The notes beneath the pieces are model-generated. The model was not told where the DNA came from and made no database searches. It was given only the letters and a program-made list of their open reading frames with translations. Positions 14,286 through 60,760 of a DNA stretch of 64,000 bases are shown piece after piece; position 1 is the first letter of the stretch, and each line of letters starts with the position of its first letter. Both the position numbers and the translations under genes were made by a program. The DNA is from Hymenobacter jejuensis (GTDB taxonomy: Bacteria > Bacteroidota > Bacteroidia > Cytophagales > Hymenobacteraceae): the NCBI RefSeq assembly GCF_006337165.1, contig NZ_CP040896.1, forward strand, positions 992,001 through 1,056,000. The letters are read 5' to 3'.

Positions 14286-14320
14286 CTACATAATACATTG
14301 ATTATCAATTTATTATGTAA
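14286..14320. repeat. 35-bp three-block palindrome, copy 2
   Basis: CTACATAA, four bases, TTGATTATCAA (14298-14308), four bases, TTATGTAA. This is the most symmetrical copy: both outer blocks and the core form a single dyad. Intergenic. Confidence 0.75.
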
Positions 14321-15842: not shown

Positions 15843-15885
15843 AAAACCAAAAAGGACAACCCGGTGGGTTGTCCTTTTTGGTTTT
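15843..15885 (-). terminator. hairpin terminator
   Basis: Perfect 20-bp stem (15843-15862 with 15866-15885) and a 3-nt loop. Both ends are A/T-rich, so it could work in both directions. It ends the gene at 15958-16416. Confidence 0.85.
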
Positions 15886-24326: not shown

Positions 24327-24361
24327 ATTGCTATCTATTTGATTATCAAGCACTTATAAAA
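24327..24361. repeat. 35-bp three-block palindrome, copy 5
   Basis: Left block weak (ATTGCTAT), core TTGATTATCAA (24339-24349) perfect, right block TTATAAAA (24354-24361) perfect. Located in the spacer between bamD and rpoZ. Confidence 0.7.
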
Positions 24362-29468: not shown

Positions 29469-29481
29469 GTGTTTCTATATC

Positions 29482-29536
29482 AACCGCATACAAAAAGACC
29501 CGCTAGATACTCTAGCGGGCCTTTTTGTATGCGGTT
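29482..29536. terminator. very strong bidirectional terminator
   Basis: A 26-bp stem with one mismatch: 29482-29507 pairs with 29511-29536, with a 3-nt loop. Shared by mdh and the rhomboid gene. Confidence 0.9.
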
Positions 29537-29568
29537 GGTTCTGGTTTTCTGATTCAAAAAAGCACTCA

Positions 29569-31259: not shown

Positions 31260-31294
31260 AAAGCTAAGCATCTGATTATCAAGTATTTACAAAC
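31260..31294. repeat. 35-bp three-block palindrome, copy 6
   Basis: Left block AAAGCTAA, core CTGATTATCAA (31272-31282), right block TTACAAAC. A second, weaker copy appears to follow in tandem at 31291-31325 with core TTGACAGCCAA and right block TTAACGAA. Located between the rhomboid and mutL genes. Confidence 0.65.
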
Positions 31295-31347
31295 ACAAGT
31301 ACTTGACAGCCAATCACTTAACGAATCGGCTAGTTAACGAGAGAAAA

Positions 31348-36674: not shown

Positions 36675-37811
36675 ATGAATATCGGCATTGTTTGTTACCC
36701 CACTTTCGGGGGCTCTGGAGTGGTTGCTACTGAGCTCGGTAAAGCCTTGGCGCTCAACGGCCACCGTGTGCACTTCATCACGTACAGCCAGCCCGTTCGC
36801 CTCGATTTTTTTAACGAAAACCTCTTCTATCACGAGGTATATATTCCGCCGTATCCGCTGTTCCAATTTCCGCCCTACGAGCTAGCGCTGGCGTCGAAAA
36901 TGGTGGACATCGTGCAGAATGAGAAGCTGGATGTGTTGCACGTACACTATGCCATTCCGCACGCGTCGGCGGCTTACATGGCCAAGCAGATTTTGATTAC
37001 GCGCGGCATTCGCATTCCGGTCGTGACAACGCTGCACGGCACCGATATTACGCTGGTGGGCAAAGACGCTAGCTATGAGCCCGTTGTGACGTTCAGCATC
37101 AACCAATCCGACGGCGTAACGGCTGTGTCAGCCGATTTGCGCAAGGAAACCTACCAGTATTTCGCCATCGAGAAAGACATTGAAGTCATCCCGAACTTCA
37201 TCAACCTCGAGCGCTTCAAAAAACAGAACAAAGGGCATTTTCGGGCAGCCATTGCGCCTGAAGGCGAAAAGCTGCTGATCCATACCTCCAACTTCCGCGA
37301 GGTAAAGCGCGTCGACGACGTGGTAAAAATCTTTGCTGGGGTGCGCGAACAGGTCCCGGCCAAGCTCCTGCTGGTCGGCGACGGCCCCGACCGCCCGCGC
37401 ATCGAGAAGCTCTGCCGCGAACTAGGTCATTGCCACGACGTGCGCTTCTTGGGCAAACTCGAGGCCGTGGAAGAAGTCCTGAGCGTAAGTGACTTATTCT
37501 TAATGCCTTCTGAAAAAGAAAGCTTCGGCTTGGCAGCACTCGAAGCCATGGCCTGCGAAGTACCCGTCATCAGTACCAATGCGGGCGGCATTCCGGAGCT
37601 GAACCTGCACGGCATCACCGGCATGGTCAGTGAAATCGGCGATGTAGACGATATGGTCAAGAACGCCCTCTACGTGCTCAGCGACGAGAATTTACCGCGT
37701 TTCAAAACTGCCGCACGGGCGCGGGCGGAAGAATTTTCAGTTGATAAAATCCTGCCCATCTACGAAGCCTGCTATCAGCGGGCGGTCAGCTCACAGCTGG
37801 CAACCGCGTAG
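36675..37811 (+). CDS. bshA: N-acetyl-alpha-D-glucosaminyl L-malate synthase BshA
   Basis: GT4 glycosyltransferase of 378 residues that joins UDP-GlcNAc and malate in the first step of bacillithiol synthesis. N-terminal MNIGIVCYPTFGGSGVVATE is diagnostic; the later TLHGTDITLVG and the EX7E-like motif EKESFGLAALEAMA support it. Start at 36675, since the longer ORF runs into the preceding terminator. bshB and bshC are not in the window. Confidence 0.93.
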   Translation: MNIGIVCYPTFGGSGVVATELGKALALNGHRVHFITYSQPVRLDFFNENLFYHEVYIPPYPLFQFPPYELALASKMVDIVQNEKLDVLHVHYAIPHASAAYMAKQILITRGIRIPVVTTLHGTDITLVGKDASYEPVVTFSINQSDGVTAVSADLRKETYQYFAIEKDIEVIPNFINLERFKKQNKGHFRAAIAPEGEKLLIHTSNFREVKRVDDVVKIFAGVREQVPAKLLLVGDGPDRPRIEKLCRELGHCHDVRFLGKLEAVEEVLSVSDLFLMPSEKESFGLAALEAMACEVPVISTNAGGIPELNLHGITGMVSEIGDVDDMVKNALYVLSDENLPRFKTAARARAEEFSVDKILPIYEACYQRAVSSQLATA

Positions 37812-37846
37812 ATTTATAGCAAGTTGATTATCAATACATTATAAAA
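37812..37846. repeat. 35-bp three-block palindrome, copy 7
   Basis: ATTTATAG, four bases, TTGATTATCAA (37824-37834), four bases, TTATAAAA. It begins directly after the bshA stop codon and ends 3 bp before a terminator-like hairpin. Confidence 0.75.
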
Positions 37847-37849
37847 AGT

Positions 37850-37888
37850 CCACCTGTCATCCTGAGCTTTGCGCAGGATGACAGGTGG
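37850..37888. terminator. REP-like bidirectional hairpin
   Basis: Perfect 15-bp stem CCACCTGTCATCCTG (37850-37864) / 37874-37888, between convergent genes. The TGTCATCCTGAGC part matches a dispersed intergenic repeat type. Confidence 0.75.
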
Positions 37889-40884: not shown

Positions 40885-40926
40885 GAAAGCCCCGCTACCG
40901 GGATAAACCTTGGTAGCGGGGCTTTC
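40885..40926 (-). terminator. terminator of the ABC-2 operon
   Basis: Perfect 15-bp stem GAAAGCCCCGCTACC (40885-40899) / 40912-40926. Confidence 0.85.
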
Positions 40927-44651: not shown

Positions 44652-44682
44652 ACAATTACCTGATTATCAATTACTTATTGAA
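44648..44682. repeat. 35-bp three-block palindrome, copy 8 (overlaps dnaJ stop codon)
   Basis: TTTTACAA, four bases, CTGATTATCAA (44660-44670), four bases, TTATTGAA (44675-44682). The TTA at 44675 is the dnaJ stop codon on the minus strand. Confidence 0.7.
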
Positions 44683-46614: not shown

Positions 46615-47613
46615 TTACTCCTTAGCGTGCAACTCCTGCCAAATCATATCCTTCAGCTGCTGGAGATTCTTGTTGGCTAAGCTGGAAATGAACACGGTGG
46701 GCAAATCCTTGGGCAAGGTTTCCCGAATTTCGGCTTCCAACTCGTCGTCGATCAGGTCGGCCTTGCTGATGGCCAGCAAGCGGCGTTTTTCCAGCAGCTC
46801 GGGGTTGAACTGTTCTAACTCACTGAGCAGAATGCCGTACTCGGCGGCGATGTCATCGCTGTCGCACGAGATCATAAAGAGCAAAATGGAATTGCGCTCG
46901 ATGTGTTTCAGGAAGCGCGTACCCAAGCCGCGGCCTTCGGCGGCCCCTTCGATGATGCCCGGAATGTCAGCCATCACAAACGACTGATAATCACGGTAAG
47001 CCACCACGCCCAGGTTCGGAACCAACGTAGTGAAGGCGTAATCGGCAATCTTGGGTCGGGCGGCTGATACGACCGAGAGCAAGGTACTTTTGCCCGCATT
47101 CGGGAAGCCGACCAAGCCTACATCAGCCAGTAGCTTCAGCTCCAGAATTATCCATTCGTCGATGCCAGGCTCGCCGGGCTGGGCGTAGGTGGGAGCTTGG
47201 TTAGTGGCCGATTTGAAGTGATCGTTGCCCAGGCCGCCGCGGCCGCCTGGCGTCAGGATCACGCGCTGGCCGTGCTCTGTGATCTCTACTTTTTTCTCGC
47301 CGGTTTCGGCATCGCGGGCGATGGTACCGAGCGGTACGGGCACCACGATATCTTCGCCCTGTGCGCCAGAACGCAGGTTTTCGCCGCCGCCTTCGCCGTG
47401 GCCGGCAATGATGTGCTTGCGGTATTGCAGGTGAAGCAACGTCCAGAGTTGGGAGTTTCCCTCTAGAATGATGTGGCCACCCCGACCACCGTCGCCGCCA
47501 TCAGGACCTCCGTTGGGCAAACCTTTGGCCCGGAAGAAGTGATGCGAACCTGCACCACCCCGGCCCGAGCGGCAGTTGATCTTGACGTAATCGATGAAAT
47601 TATTGGAAGCCAC
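46615..47613 (-). CDS. obgE: GTPase ObgE
   Basis: Obg-family GTPase of 332 residues, involved in late assembly of the 50S ribosomal subunit and stress control. The glycine-rich Obg fold ([22 protein letters not shown]) is followed by a G domain: [12 protein letters not shown], a [16 protein letters not shown] switch and SKADL. I choose the GTG at 47613 (reading [12 protein letters not shown]), because this is the conserved start; the ATG at 47691 adds an unconserved stretch and lies in the repeat beside it. Confidence 0.93.
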
Positions 47614-47687: not shown

Positions 47688-47774
47688 GCAAAGCGAAGGA
47701 CCTTTCTGGATTAGATCACAAATGCCTGATAATCAAGCAGTTATAAAATAATCCAAAAAGGTCCTTCGCTTTGC
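47688..47774. repeat. 26-bp inverted repeat enclosing one 35-bp palindrome
   Basis: Arms 47688-47713 and 47749-47774 pair at 25 of 26 positions. The 35-nt loop is exactly one copy of the palindrome. The arms contain GCAAAGCGAAGGACCTTTCTGG-like sequence, which resembles dispersed REP-like repeats. Located between obgE and adk. Confidence 0.8.
47714..47748. repeat. 35-bp three-block palindrome, copy 9
   Basis: GATCACAA, four bases, CTGATAATCAA (47726-47736), four bases, TTATAAAA (47741-47748). It fills the loop of the surrounding inverted repeat without gap or overlap. Confidence 0.75.
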
Positions 47775-47821
47775 TTGGGAGGACAGAGAAAAGGACGCCG
47801 CCTGTTGGCAACGCCGTAAAG

Positions 47822-48451
47822 TTACGCCTTTACTTCGTCGGTCGCTTCTTGGCTGTCCGTTACGGAGGTAGCGGCACCTTGGTGACGGTCAATTATGGCG
47901 CAAATCTGCCCAAAAATATCTTCGATGGCGCCGATGCCATTAAGGGCGTGAAACTTGCCCTGCGTAGCGTAGTAGCCGGCTACCTGAGCGGTTTCGGTGT
48001 TGTACACCGTTACACGCTTCCGGATTTTGGTTTCGTCTTGGTCGTCGGGGCGGCCACTGGTTTTGCCGCGCTCTAGCAGGCGCGTAACGAGTTCTTCCTC
48101 ATTTACTTCTAGCGCCACCATGCAGGTTACGCCGGTATTGTAACGCTGGGTGAGGGCGTCGAGGCTTTCGGCCTGAGGCACGGTACGAGGAAAACCGTCG
48201 AAGATAAAGCCGGCCGCGCTGGTGTTATTGGCTAATTGGCTCTCAATCATACCGATAACTACTTCGTCGGGTACGAGCAGGCCTTCGTCCATCAATTTCT
48301 TGGCCCGCAGCCCCAATTCAGTGCCTTGCGCAATCTGCGAACGAAGCAGATCGCCGGTGGAAAGATGCACGAGGTTGTAGCGGGCAATGAGCTTCTGACT
48401 TTGCGTTCCTTTGCCGGCGCCGGGAGGGCCAAACAGTACAATATTCAGCAT
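47822..48451 (-). CDS. adk: adenylate kinase
   Basis: Adenylate kinase of 209 residues, converting AMP and ATP to two ADP. P-loop GPPGAGKGTQS at residues 7-17, HLSTGDLLR, the FDGFPRTVPQAESL motif near 85 and RLLERGKTSGRPDDQDET in the lid. No zinc cysteines in the lid. The last 20 residues (GAATSVTDSQEATDEVKA) form an acidic extension. Confidence 0.95.
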   Translation of the reverse strand: MLNIVLFGPPGAGKGTQSQKLIARYNLVHLSTGDLLRSQIAQGTELGLRAKKLMDEGLLVPDEVVIGMIESQLANNTSAAGFIFDGFPRTVPQAESLDALTQRYNTGVTCMVALEVNEEELVTRLLERGKTSGRPDDQDETKIRKRVTVYNTETAQVAGYYATQGKFHALNGIGAIEDIFGQICAIIDRHQGAATSVTDSQEATDEVKA

Positions 48452-58444: not shown

Positions 58445-58479
58445 CTACACAAATAACTAATTATCAACTATTTACACAG
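58445..58479. repeat. 35-bp three-block palindrome, copy 11
   Basis: CTACACAA, four bases, CTAATTATCAA (58457-58467), four bases, TTACACAG. Sits between the two divergent glycan operons. Confidence 0.65.
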
Positions 58480-59582: not shown

Positions 59583-60716
59583 ATGAAGCCAATTCCGTTT
59601 AACAAACCGTTTCTAGCGGGCCAAGAACTGCACTACATTCAGCAAGCCGTGGCCCAGGGCAAACTTTCGGGCAACGGCGAGTTTACGCAGCTTTGCCAGC
59701 GCTTTTTTCAACAACGCTACGGCATTCCCAAAGCCCTTCTGACCACGAGCGCAACCACAGCGCTGGAGATGGCGGCGTTGCTGCTTGATCTACACCCCGG
59801 CGACGAGGTCATCATGCCCTCATTCACGTTCACCTCAACGGCGAATGCCTTTGTGCTCCGCGGTGCCCGTATCGTATTCGCTGATAGCTACTTAGACAAT
59901 CCGAATCTAGACATCAGTCAGCTTGCATCCCTGATTACGCCGCGCACAAAAGCCATTGTGCCGGTACATTATGCCGGCGTAGCCTGCAACATGGCGCCCC
60001 TGTTGGCCCTAGCCGAAGAACACGGCATTTGGGTAATTGAAGATGCGGCCCAAGCCATCGAAGGGTATTATCTGGAGAAACCGTTGGGCGCAATCGGCCA
60101 TTTGGCCGCCTTCTCGTTCCACGAAACTAAAAACGTGATTGCCGGCGAAGGTGGCTTACTAGCGATCAATGACGAACGTTTTGCGGAGCGTGCCGAGATT
60201 CTATGGGAAAAAGGCACCAACCGCGCCGCTTTCTTCCGCGGTGAAGCCGCTCGGTATCAATGGATTGACATTGGCTCGTCGTTTCTGCCGTCCGAGCTGA
60301 CGGCCGCTTACCTCTGGGCCCAGCTCGAACAAATCACAGCCATCCGGGAGCAACGCTTGCAGCAATGGAACCGATACGCGACGGCGCTTCAATCGCTAGC
60401 CGAAGCAGGCCATTGCGCGTTGCCCGCCATCCCAGTTTACGCAACGCACAACGGACACATTTTCTATCTGATTTGCCGTGATACCAACGAGCGGCAAGCG
60501 CTGATCCAACACCTCGCGGAGCACCAGATCTTGGCGGTTTTCCATTACCAAACGCTGCACAACAGCCCGTTTTACCACAACCTCCACGACGGTCGCCAAT
60601 TGCCCCACGCCCGCCGCTTCGCCGAATGCCTGCTGCGCTTGCCTTTATATTTCGAACTTTCCGAAACCGATCAGCAACGCGTCATTGCTGCGGTCAATAG
60701 CTTTTACAAAGCTTAG
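59583..60716 (+). CDS. sugar aminotransferase, WecE/RffA type
   Basis: PLP enzyme of 377 residues (E. coli WecE has 376). The Schiff-base lysine is Lys183 in FHETKNVIAGEGG, where WecE has Lys181; PSFTFTSTANAF and IEDAAQAIEGYY also match. It probably makes dTDP-4-amino-4,6-dideoxygalactose or a similar 4-amino sugar. A formyltransferase nearby would have such an amine as a natural target. No rmlA/rmlB in the window. Confidence 0.85.
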   Translation: MKPIPFNKPFLAGQELHYIQQAVAQGKLSGNGEFTQLCQRFFQQRYGIPKALLTTSATTALEMAALLLDLHPGDEVIMPSFTFTSTANAFVLRGARIVFADSYLDNPNLDISQLASLITPRTKAIVPVHYAGVACNMAPLLALAEEHGIWVIEDAAQAIEGYYLEKPLGAIGHLAAFSFHETKNVIAGEGGLLAINDERFAERAEILWEKGTNRAAFFRGEAARYQWIDIGSSFLPSELTAAYLWAQLEQITAIREQRLQQWNRYATALQSLAEAGHCALPAIPVYATHNGHIFYLICRDTNERQALIQHLAEHQILAVFHYQTLHNSPFYHNLHDGRQLPHARRFAECLLRLPLYFELSETDQQRVIAAVNSFYKA

Positions 60717-60760
60717 ATAATTTCATATCGTATTGACTACCAATACGATATGAAATTATC
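60716..60760. terminator. bidirectional hairpin terminator
   Basis: Perfect 20-bp stem (60716-60735 with 60741-60760), 5-nt loop, starting at the last base of the aminotransferase stop codon and ending 5 bp before the next convergent gene. Confidence 0.85.

Follow-up and report, generated by a model that had tools for sequence, protein, structure and literature searches.

Boccard and Prentki reportedly dealt with the RIB/RIP elements of enterobacteria in 1993. At IHF sites, the W of the consensus lies on the structural dyad, and the kinks are 9 bp apart. BIME-1, as far as it is treated in PMC2817692, consists of two opposed REP arms around an IHF-type site and is located at the 3' end of a transcription unit. 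According to the relevant part of PMC8421141, an IHF site covers 35 bp and is bent by 160 degrees. The published consensus is WATCARNNNNTTR, as given in a section of PMC9820253, and the portions of both papers that concern site architecture describe a consensus that occupies one side of the site, with the opposite side often bearing an A-tract. A table excerpted from PMC6907758 sets the IHF consensus beside H-NS, which is presumably a slip there.

A composite inverted repeat is located between adk and obg on the complete 5.087-Mb chromosome of Hymenobacter jejuensis (G000), within the window, that is, the whole stretch of 64,000 nucleotides that was analyzed. Its parts are the following, of which only the two genes have a strand.

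47688..47713: left arm of a 26-bp inverted repeat; by orthology, inner part of a predicted REP-like adk terminator stem (GCAAAGCGAAGGACCTTT...), with the same stem in relatives, e.g., L037
47714..47748: 35-bp interior containing the dyad
47719..47743: 25-bp dyad of the type YAANNNNYTGAT-W-ATCARNNNNTTR, matrix score 29.0, axis 47731
47749..47774: right arm, complementary to the left arm at 25/26 positions
47822..48451, minus strand: adk (adenylate kinase), open reading frame, upstream gene and owner of the terminator; orthologous order in 79/80 loci
46615..47613, minus strand: obg GTPase gene, downstream

As claimed in an earlier note on this DNA, 25 of the 26 arm positions are complementary, and the two arms are 35 bases apart. 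The further claim that these 35 bases are exactly one palindrome holds for the axis, which is a single one at 47731 common to the 26-bp arms and the central dyad. It does not hold for the interior, where only 22 of the 35 positions self-pair; this is a partial palindrome, the conserved portion of which is the 25-bp dyad. The exact feature is the shared axis, the length of 35 bp being merely the gap left by the arms. Folded about 47731, the whole 87 bp give arms of 43 nt with 84% of the positions paired and 1 nt in between, which is the longest of 13 inverted repeats detected in the window at the same settings. RNA of the adk strand of the element has a predicted folding energy of -65.8 kcal/mol, compared with -26.9 (sd 3.5) for 200 shuffles (z -11.2). 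The inverted repeat at 47688-47774 is far beyond chance, and it is two things on one axis, namely, ancestral adk terminator arms and a member of a dyad family. Other strong inverted repeats of the window, probably ordinary terminators, are found at 29481-29537, 792-839, 15843-15885, and 40885-40926.

The adk-obg spacer was read in 80 orthologous obg loci, nearly all of them from Hymenobacter, with adk being found in 79. Both arm motifs, GCGAAGGACCTT and AAGGTCCTTCGC, are present in 45 of the 79 spacers (adk direction, at most two mismatches) and TGTCATCCTGAGC in 59 (at most two mismatches), and in relatives a T run commonly follows 3' of the adk hairpin. The dyad core is absent from all 79 Hymenobacter spacers at up to one mismatch; arms and loop are, thus, separable, as the earlier note had envisaged. 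By orthology, the arms of the window have a predicted terminator role and are the inner part of what would be the ancestral intrinsic adk terminator, whose outer stem and T run are degraded in the window, with TTTT only. The hairpin apex between the arm motifs measures 61 nt in the window versus a median of 54 nt (range 32-65) in 54 relatives, the lengths being taken with a wider pattern that leaves out the 25 of 79 spacers misfitting it. The window's apex is not 35 nt longer, which gives no support to the insertion of a 35-bp unit into a hairpin that had been suggested. At this one orthologous terminator position, unrelated stems occur across Hymenobacter (L031-L110), i.e., the TGTCATCCTGAGC type plus others; a GTCATGC-type (GTCATGCTGAGC-type) stem is present in 6 and a GAGTTATG-type (GAGTTATGAG-type) stem in 13 of the 79 spacers. 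The differing stems look as if whole hairpins had been exchanged. A second, smaller hairpin lies directly 3' of the adk stop (window 47775-47821; L031-L110) and seems to be conserved in shape with its sequence changing, as exemplified by CTGCTACC...GGTAGTGGCAG in relatives. An Rfam scan gave no matches other than to microRNA and snoRNA models; these fell far short of the respective gathering scores and were taken as chance.

Searching the whole genome with the element recovered, in addition to the query, numerous weak matches to the palindrome and opposed arm pairs with other interiors. TTGATWATCAANNNNTTA is present in 121 + 128 copies in the genome, with none for the reversed control. In a sample of 864 kb of the genome (the window and 40 stretches), TTGATWATCAA occurs 36 times, compared with zero or one copy for each of 19 other half-site letter orders; these 36 exact cores stand against 79 with one mismatch. 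A symmetric 27-bp matrix, the threshold of which (17) was set from the control, detects 284 sites in the same sample versus 11 in reversed sequence, while a 41-bp version drifted on iteration. Since the matrix was derived from the very DNA that it scans, it is the reversed-sequence and relative controls that carry weight. By extrapolation, the genome total is about 1,600 dyad sites. Each half of the matrix reads W-A-T-C-A-R-N4-T-T-R, the halves flanking a shared central W; the best-conserved positions are T11 (.99), A4 (.96), and T10 (.89), the R after ATCA is A in.71 and G in.26, and the terminal R12 is A in.80 and G in.20. Over the 284 sites, this half-site equals WATCARNNNNTTR on both sides of the shared W. 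Judged by its letters, the dyad is the IHF consensus doubled, in two mirror-image halves that share the central W. Among the top-ranked results of a literature search, there was no paper on the dyad motif in Hymenobacter. Further dyads of the window and a neighboring hairpin, all without strand, are listed here.

14291..14315: dyad, score 32.7
24332..24356: dyad, score 29.7
31265..31289: dyad, score 29.4; another (22.8) is centered at 31308 in the same spacer
37817..37841: second dyad noted earlier, score 24.1
37850..37888: REP-like terminator hairpin (TGTCATCCTGAGC...GCGCAGGATGACA) beside the dyad at 37817..37841
44653..44677: dyad at the dnaJ 3' end, score 34.6; its outer element is the dnaJ stop TAA (44675-44677, minus strand)
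58450..58474: dyad in a divergent spacer, score 29.7
60726..60750: weak dyad (17.9) on the axis of a perfect 20-bp inverted repeat (60716-60760) between convergent genes

The dyad is found at other loci of the genome without the arms of the adk composite, which bears out the view of the palindrome as a discrete, recurring unit. The palindrome reported at 37812-37846 is likewise present; it starts immediately after a TAG stop ending at 37811, and the REP-like hairpin begins 3 bp on, at 37850.

Genes were called by a home-made hexamer method, and the class counts are, therefore, approximate: 134 of the 284 sites are tandem, 58 convergent, 25 divergent, and 60 genic, with 7 at edges. Site density per kb is 4.96 in convergent, 1.63 in tandem, and 0.84 in divergent spacers and 0.08 in genes. 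Dyad sites favor gene 3' ends. A stop codon faces 192 of the sites, at no more than 60 bp in 137 of them; the distance is exactly d=9 in 44, where the stop is always TAA and doubles as the dyad's outer TAA, and d=5 in 13. Near terminators predicted by a crude detector there is no enrichment (42 of 202 sites versus 400 of 2045 random points), so that the adk-type composite would not be the rule. Intergenic sites scoring at least 19 occur singly in 177 spacers and in pairs in 9, where 31-35 multi-site spacers would be expected. An apparently even spacing (CV 0.79 versus 1.13; 14 versus 64.9 gaps below 500 bp) was discarded, its control having mixed genic sites and intergenic points. Compared with a matched control in which distinct 3' spacers were drawn, the observed CV is 0.75 versus 0.80 (sd 0.05), with 19 versus 20.5 gaps below 1 kb; hence, the rule of one site per spacer accounts for the spacing, and there is no evenness beyond it. 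One 20-kb stretch (L181, G000 1890001-1910000) has no dyad scoring at least 19, and all of its 10 called genes are on one strand; it was perhaps recently acquired.

Pairing between the two halves was tested on the 243 sites scoring at least 19. The contact positions 1, 2, 4, 5, and 10-12 show no pairing excess over independent halves (z -1.6 to 1.8), position 5 of the two halves being AA in 130 sites, AG in 44, GA in 43, and GG in 16. Position 3 has a pairing deficit (z -3.2), and the spacer positions 6-9 have some excess (z 2.0-4.3), which remains at z 2.0-3.4 after removal of 15 hairpin-like sites. Since the contact bases of the halves vary independently, the dyad is probably read as duplex DNA, which fits two independent protein half-sites. 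A conserved function as RNA hairpin is rejected for the contact bases, though not wholly for the spacer bases. Long inverted repeats (at least 11 of 14 arm positions paired) enclose 10 of 283 sites, one edge site having been dropped, whereas 0.17 would be expected from the share of 0.0006 among random points. With at least 10 of 14 positions paired there are 15 sites, including the adk composite, 11 of which lie between convergent genes. The arms differ from one hairpin-like site to the next; thus, each locus seems to have acquired its composite separately, either by a hairpin arising around a dyad or by a dyad arising at the tip of a hairpin.

At the 3' end of dnaJ, which could be read in 71 relatives, the dyad of the window occupies the short sequence that separates stop and terminator; this sequence has about the same length in, e.g., L032 and L044, where it is without a dyad. 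The dyad, accordingly, fills a gap about as long as that of relatives, which again gives no support to an insertion. The site-bearing spacers of six orthologous pairs differ in length by +22, +33, -42, -375, +6, and -580 and are, thus, not longer than their orthologues, two of them differing by hundreds of bases. Several genic sites are read in frame inside long reading frames. Gaps of similar length, spacer lengths, and in-frame sites point to an origin of the dyads by base substitution rather than insertion. A clean insertion of defined length relative to relatives, by which a MITE would be recognized, was not found.

Among 204 Hymenobacteraceae genomes, 47 contain any strict dyad; G000 has 148, the distant congener G101 has 11, and the others have 0-2. 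A survey of 395 Bacteroidota genomes found the strict dyad in 42, the highest number after G000 being 8, and the reversed control in 1. G391, a 7.2-Mb genome of the same order but another family, has 8 strict dyads and is a possible third motif carrier. The matrix finds 2 matches in 600 kb of seven relatives and 1 in the 551 kb of the 80 obg loci (L083, score 17.4), compared with 22 in 200 kb of G101, where reversed sequence gives 3. Motif density in G101 is below that in G000, and its sites, too, peak at d=9 from the stop (5 of 22). In a comparison of a 987-residue protein, G101 ranks 98th by score, with 70% identity versus 83-84% for the nearest relatives, to which G036, with one weak dyad match in 80 kb, belongs. 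With G101 distant and the nearest relatives motif-poor, two separate origins, or a moved factor, would be likelier than a single shared origin. The sampled stretches of G101 and G000 have 7 genes in common, too few for a comparison of orthologous sites.

The best reading of the dyad, to which we would give about an even chance, is that of a putative site for a homodimer of a DNABII (HU/IHF-like) protein. One DNABII gene was detected in the genome (PF00216, 81.4 bits); a PF18291 search matches the same gene.

G000 1519270-1519536: DNABII (HU) gene

Its product has relatives of known structure among IHF and HU proteins. A single DNABII gene fits a homodimer and, hence, a symmetric site, and the same motif in two separated lineages fits a conserved reader. 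Of what would characterize an IHF/DNABII site, both the consensus WATCARNNNNTTR and an encoded DNABII protein are present; the two subunit genes of IHF proper are not, there being one DNABII match at E 0.001. The gene is found in 119 of 120 Hymenobacter genomes and, being conserved in the genus, cannot alone explain a private expansion of the dyad. In an alignment of 50 DNABII sequences (30 loci from the survey and 20 chosen by hand), the beta-arm region of G000 equals the consensus; five residues outside the arm are private to G000 (S23, S40, T86, S87, and S98), and G101 has none. A change in HU common to G000 and G101 was sought among the 50 aligned sequences and not found. The single consensus WATCARNNNNTTR occurs in seven relatives 24 times in intergenic DNA versus 9.7 (2 of 300 controls as high) and 26 times in coding DNA versus 9.7 (8 of 300 as high); as the excess extends to coding DNA, it may in part reflect composition. 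In the 80 obg loci it is not enriched (intergenic 5 versus 5.6, coding 13 versus 8.7). The binding protein, the bending, and the function are what we infer: the homodimer would bind the dyad and bend the DNA, mostly at gene 3' ends, and the bent dyad could serve to anchor a supercoil boundary or to give transcription a clean end, by analogy with RIB/BIME-1 of E. coli.

If the dyad were only the RNA hairpin tip of a transcription terminator, with no role at the level of DNA, the very stable adk hairpin and the 10 of 283 sites in long inverted repeats, compared with a share of 0.0006 among random points, would find a ready explanation. The contact bases, however, do not covary, 273 of the 283 sites are without such arms, and sites are not enriched near predicted terminators, which makes this very improbable. 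Scarcely credible is a mobile element, with the 35-bp unit or the 87-bp composite as a MITE or REPIN copied by a transposase, despite the many dispersed copies and the dyad adjoining a REP-like hairpin at 37812-37888. The copies have contact bases in common but not spacers, spacers at sites are not longer than their orthologues (six pairs), and sites lie inside reading frames. The Y1-type (RAYT) transposase which the earlier note had suggested looking for elsewhere in the genome gave no match to PF01797, a family found in 5 of 14 control genomes. Mobilization of the whole composite, also raised there, does not agree with the different arms of other long inverted repeats with axial dyads, or with spacer bases that vary from copy to copy.

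Most of the probability left by a DNABII site is shared by a drive like that of uptake sequences and by another reader or maker. The former is the main rival and, in our view, rather unlikely: the dyad would be a putative motif of the DUS/USS kind, the number of which was raised in this lineage by receptor preference and biased transformation. It would account for copies numbering in the thousand range but limited to a few lineages, for dyads in coding DNA (60 of 284), for their apparent formation by substitution, and for their recruitment into hairpins at convergent gene ends; a ComEC-family protein is encoded in the genome, and the portion of PMC3630211 at issue describes, for DUS, dyad pairs that overlap in one species as well as inverted pairs resembling terminators. 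On the other hand, known uptake sequences are not palindromes, as stated in a passage of PMC1939737, and agreement with the IHF consensus would have arisen by chance, as would recurrence in two separated lineages unless the receptor had moved. While the strong over-representation of uptake sequences is found, a non-palindromic exact core is not, the matrix being symmetric and degenerate and the core loosely conserved (36 exact versus 79 one-mismatch copies), and ComEC, present in 10 of 14 control genomes, is little informative. It is unlikely, too, that the dyad is read or made by another DNA-binding protein or by a HIP1-like methylation or repair bias, through a gene common to G000 and G101. 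The DNABII gene is not distinctive across the genus, so that a lineage-specific factor is wanted, and HIP palindromes are, in the part of PMC4390886 devoted to them, abundant in some genomes, near-absent in others, and tied to methyltransferases; the exact spacing and degeneracy of the IHF half-site would then, however, be accidental.

More than 1,000 copies of a protein-sized motif with near-none in close relatives raise a question common to uptake sequences, HIP1, and nucleoid-protein sites. The dyad names its probable reader, a DNABII protein; motif-lacking relatives are in hand, and a second, separated lineage carries the motif, by which reader and driver become open to experiment and to comparison of gene content. 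Tentatively, and with somewhat less than even confidence, we would propose that ~1,600 doubled IHF-type sites arose by substitution in a Bacteroidota lineage, each 3' spacer receiving a single site of which the stop codon became a part, and that such a build-up took place on two independent occasions within one genus. This would be a chromosome-wide boundary or uptake code, its driving process undescribed outside Neisseriaceae, Pasteurellaceae, and cyanobacteria.

Compared with known systems, the dyad agrees with an IHF site in the letters, degeneracy, and spacing of each half, but the consensus flanks a shared W on either side, and a single DNABII gene was detected in place of two IHF subunits. 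With DUS/USS it has in common copies in the thousand range, confinement to lineages, presence in coding DNA, and terminator-like inverted pairs; DUS/USS are, however, non-palindromic with exact cores, whereas the dyad is symmetric and degenerate. HIP1 of cyanobacteria is likewise a palindrome repeated very many times, which some genomes have in abundance and others almost lack, but it is a GC-rich, methyltransferase-linked octamer, while the dyad is AT-rich, 25 bp long, and concentrated at 3' ends. REP/RAYT (REPIN) systems share the REP-like hairpin arms, but no Y1 transposase was detected here (PF01797), and the arms behave as an orthologous terminator. Like RIB/BIME-1, this locus has opposed REP-like arms that enclose an IHF-type site, and it lies at the 3' end of a gene. 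Here, however, the site is doubled and symmetric, and it is the site, not the composite, that is the repeated unit: long inverted repeats enclose 10 of 283 sites with differing arms, and this locus is the only one among the 283 with arms identified as REP-like, a term used independently of any comparison with the enterobacterial REP sequence. The local composite, thus, resembles BIME-1 in plan, and the chief interest lies in the dyad family.
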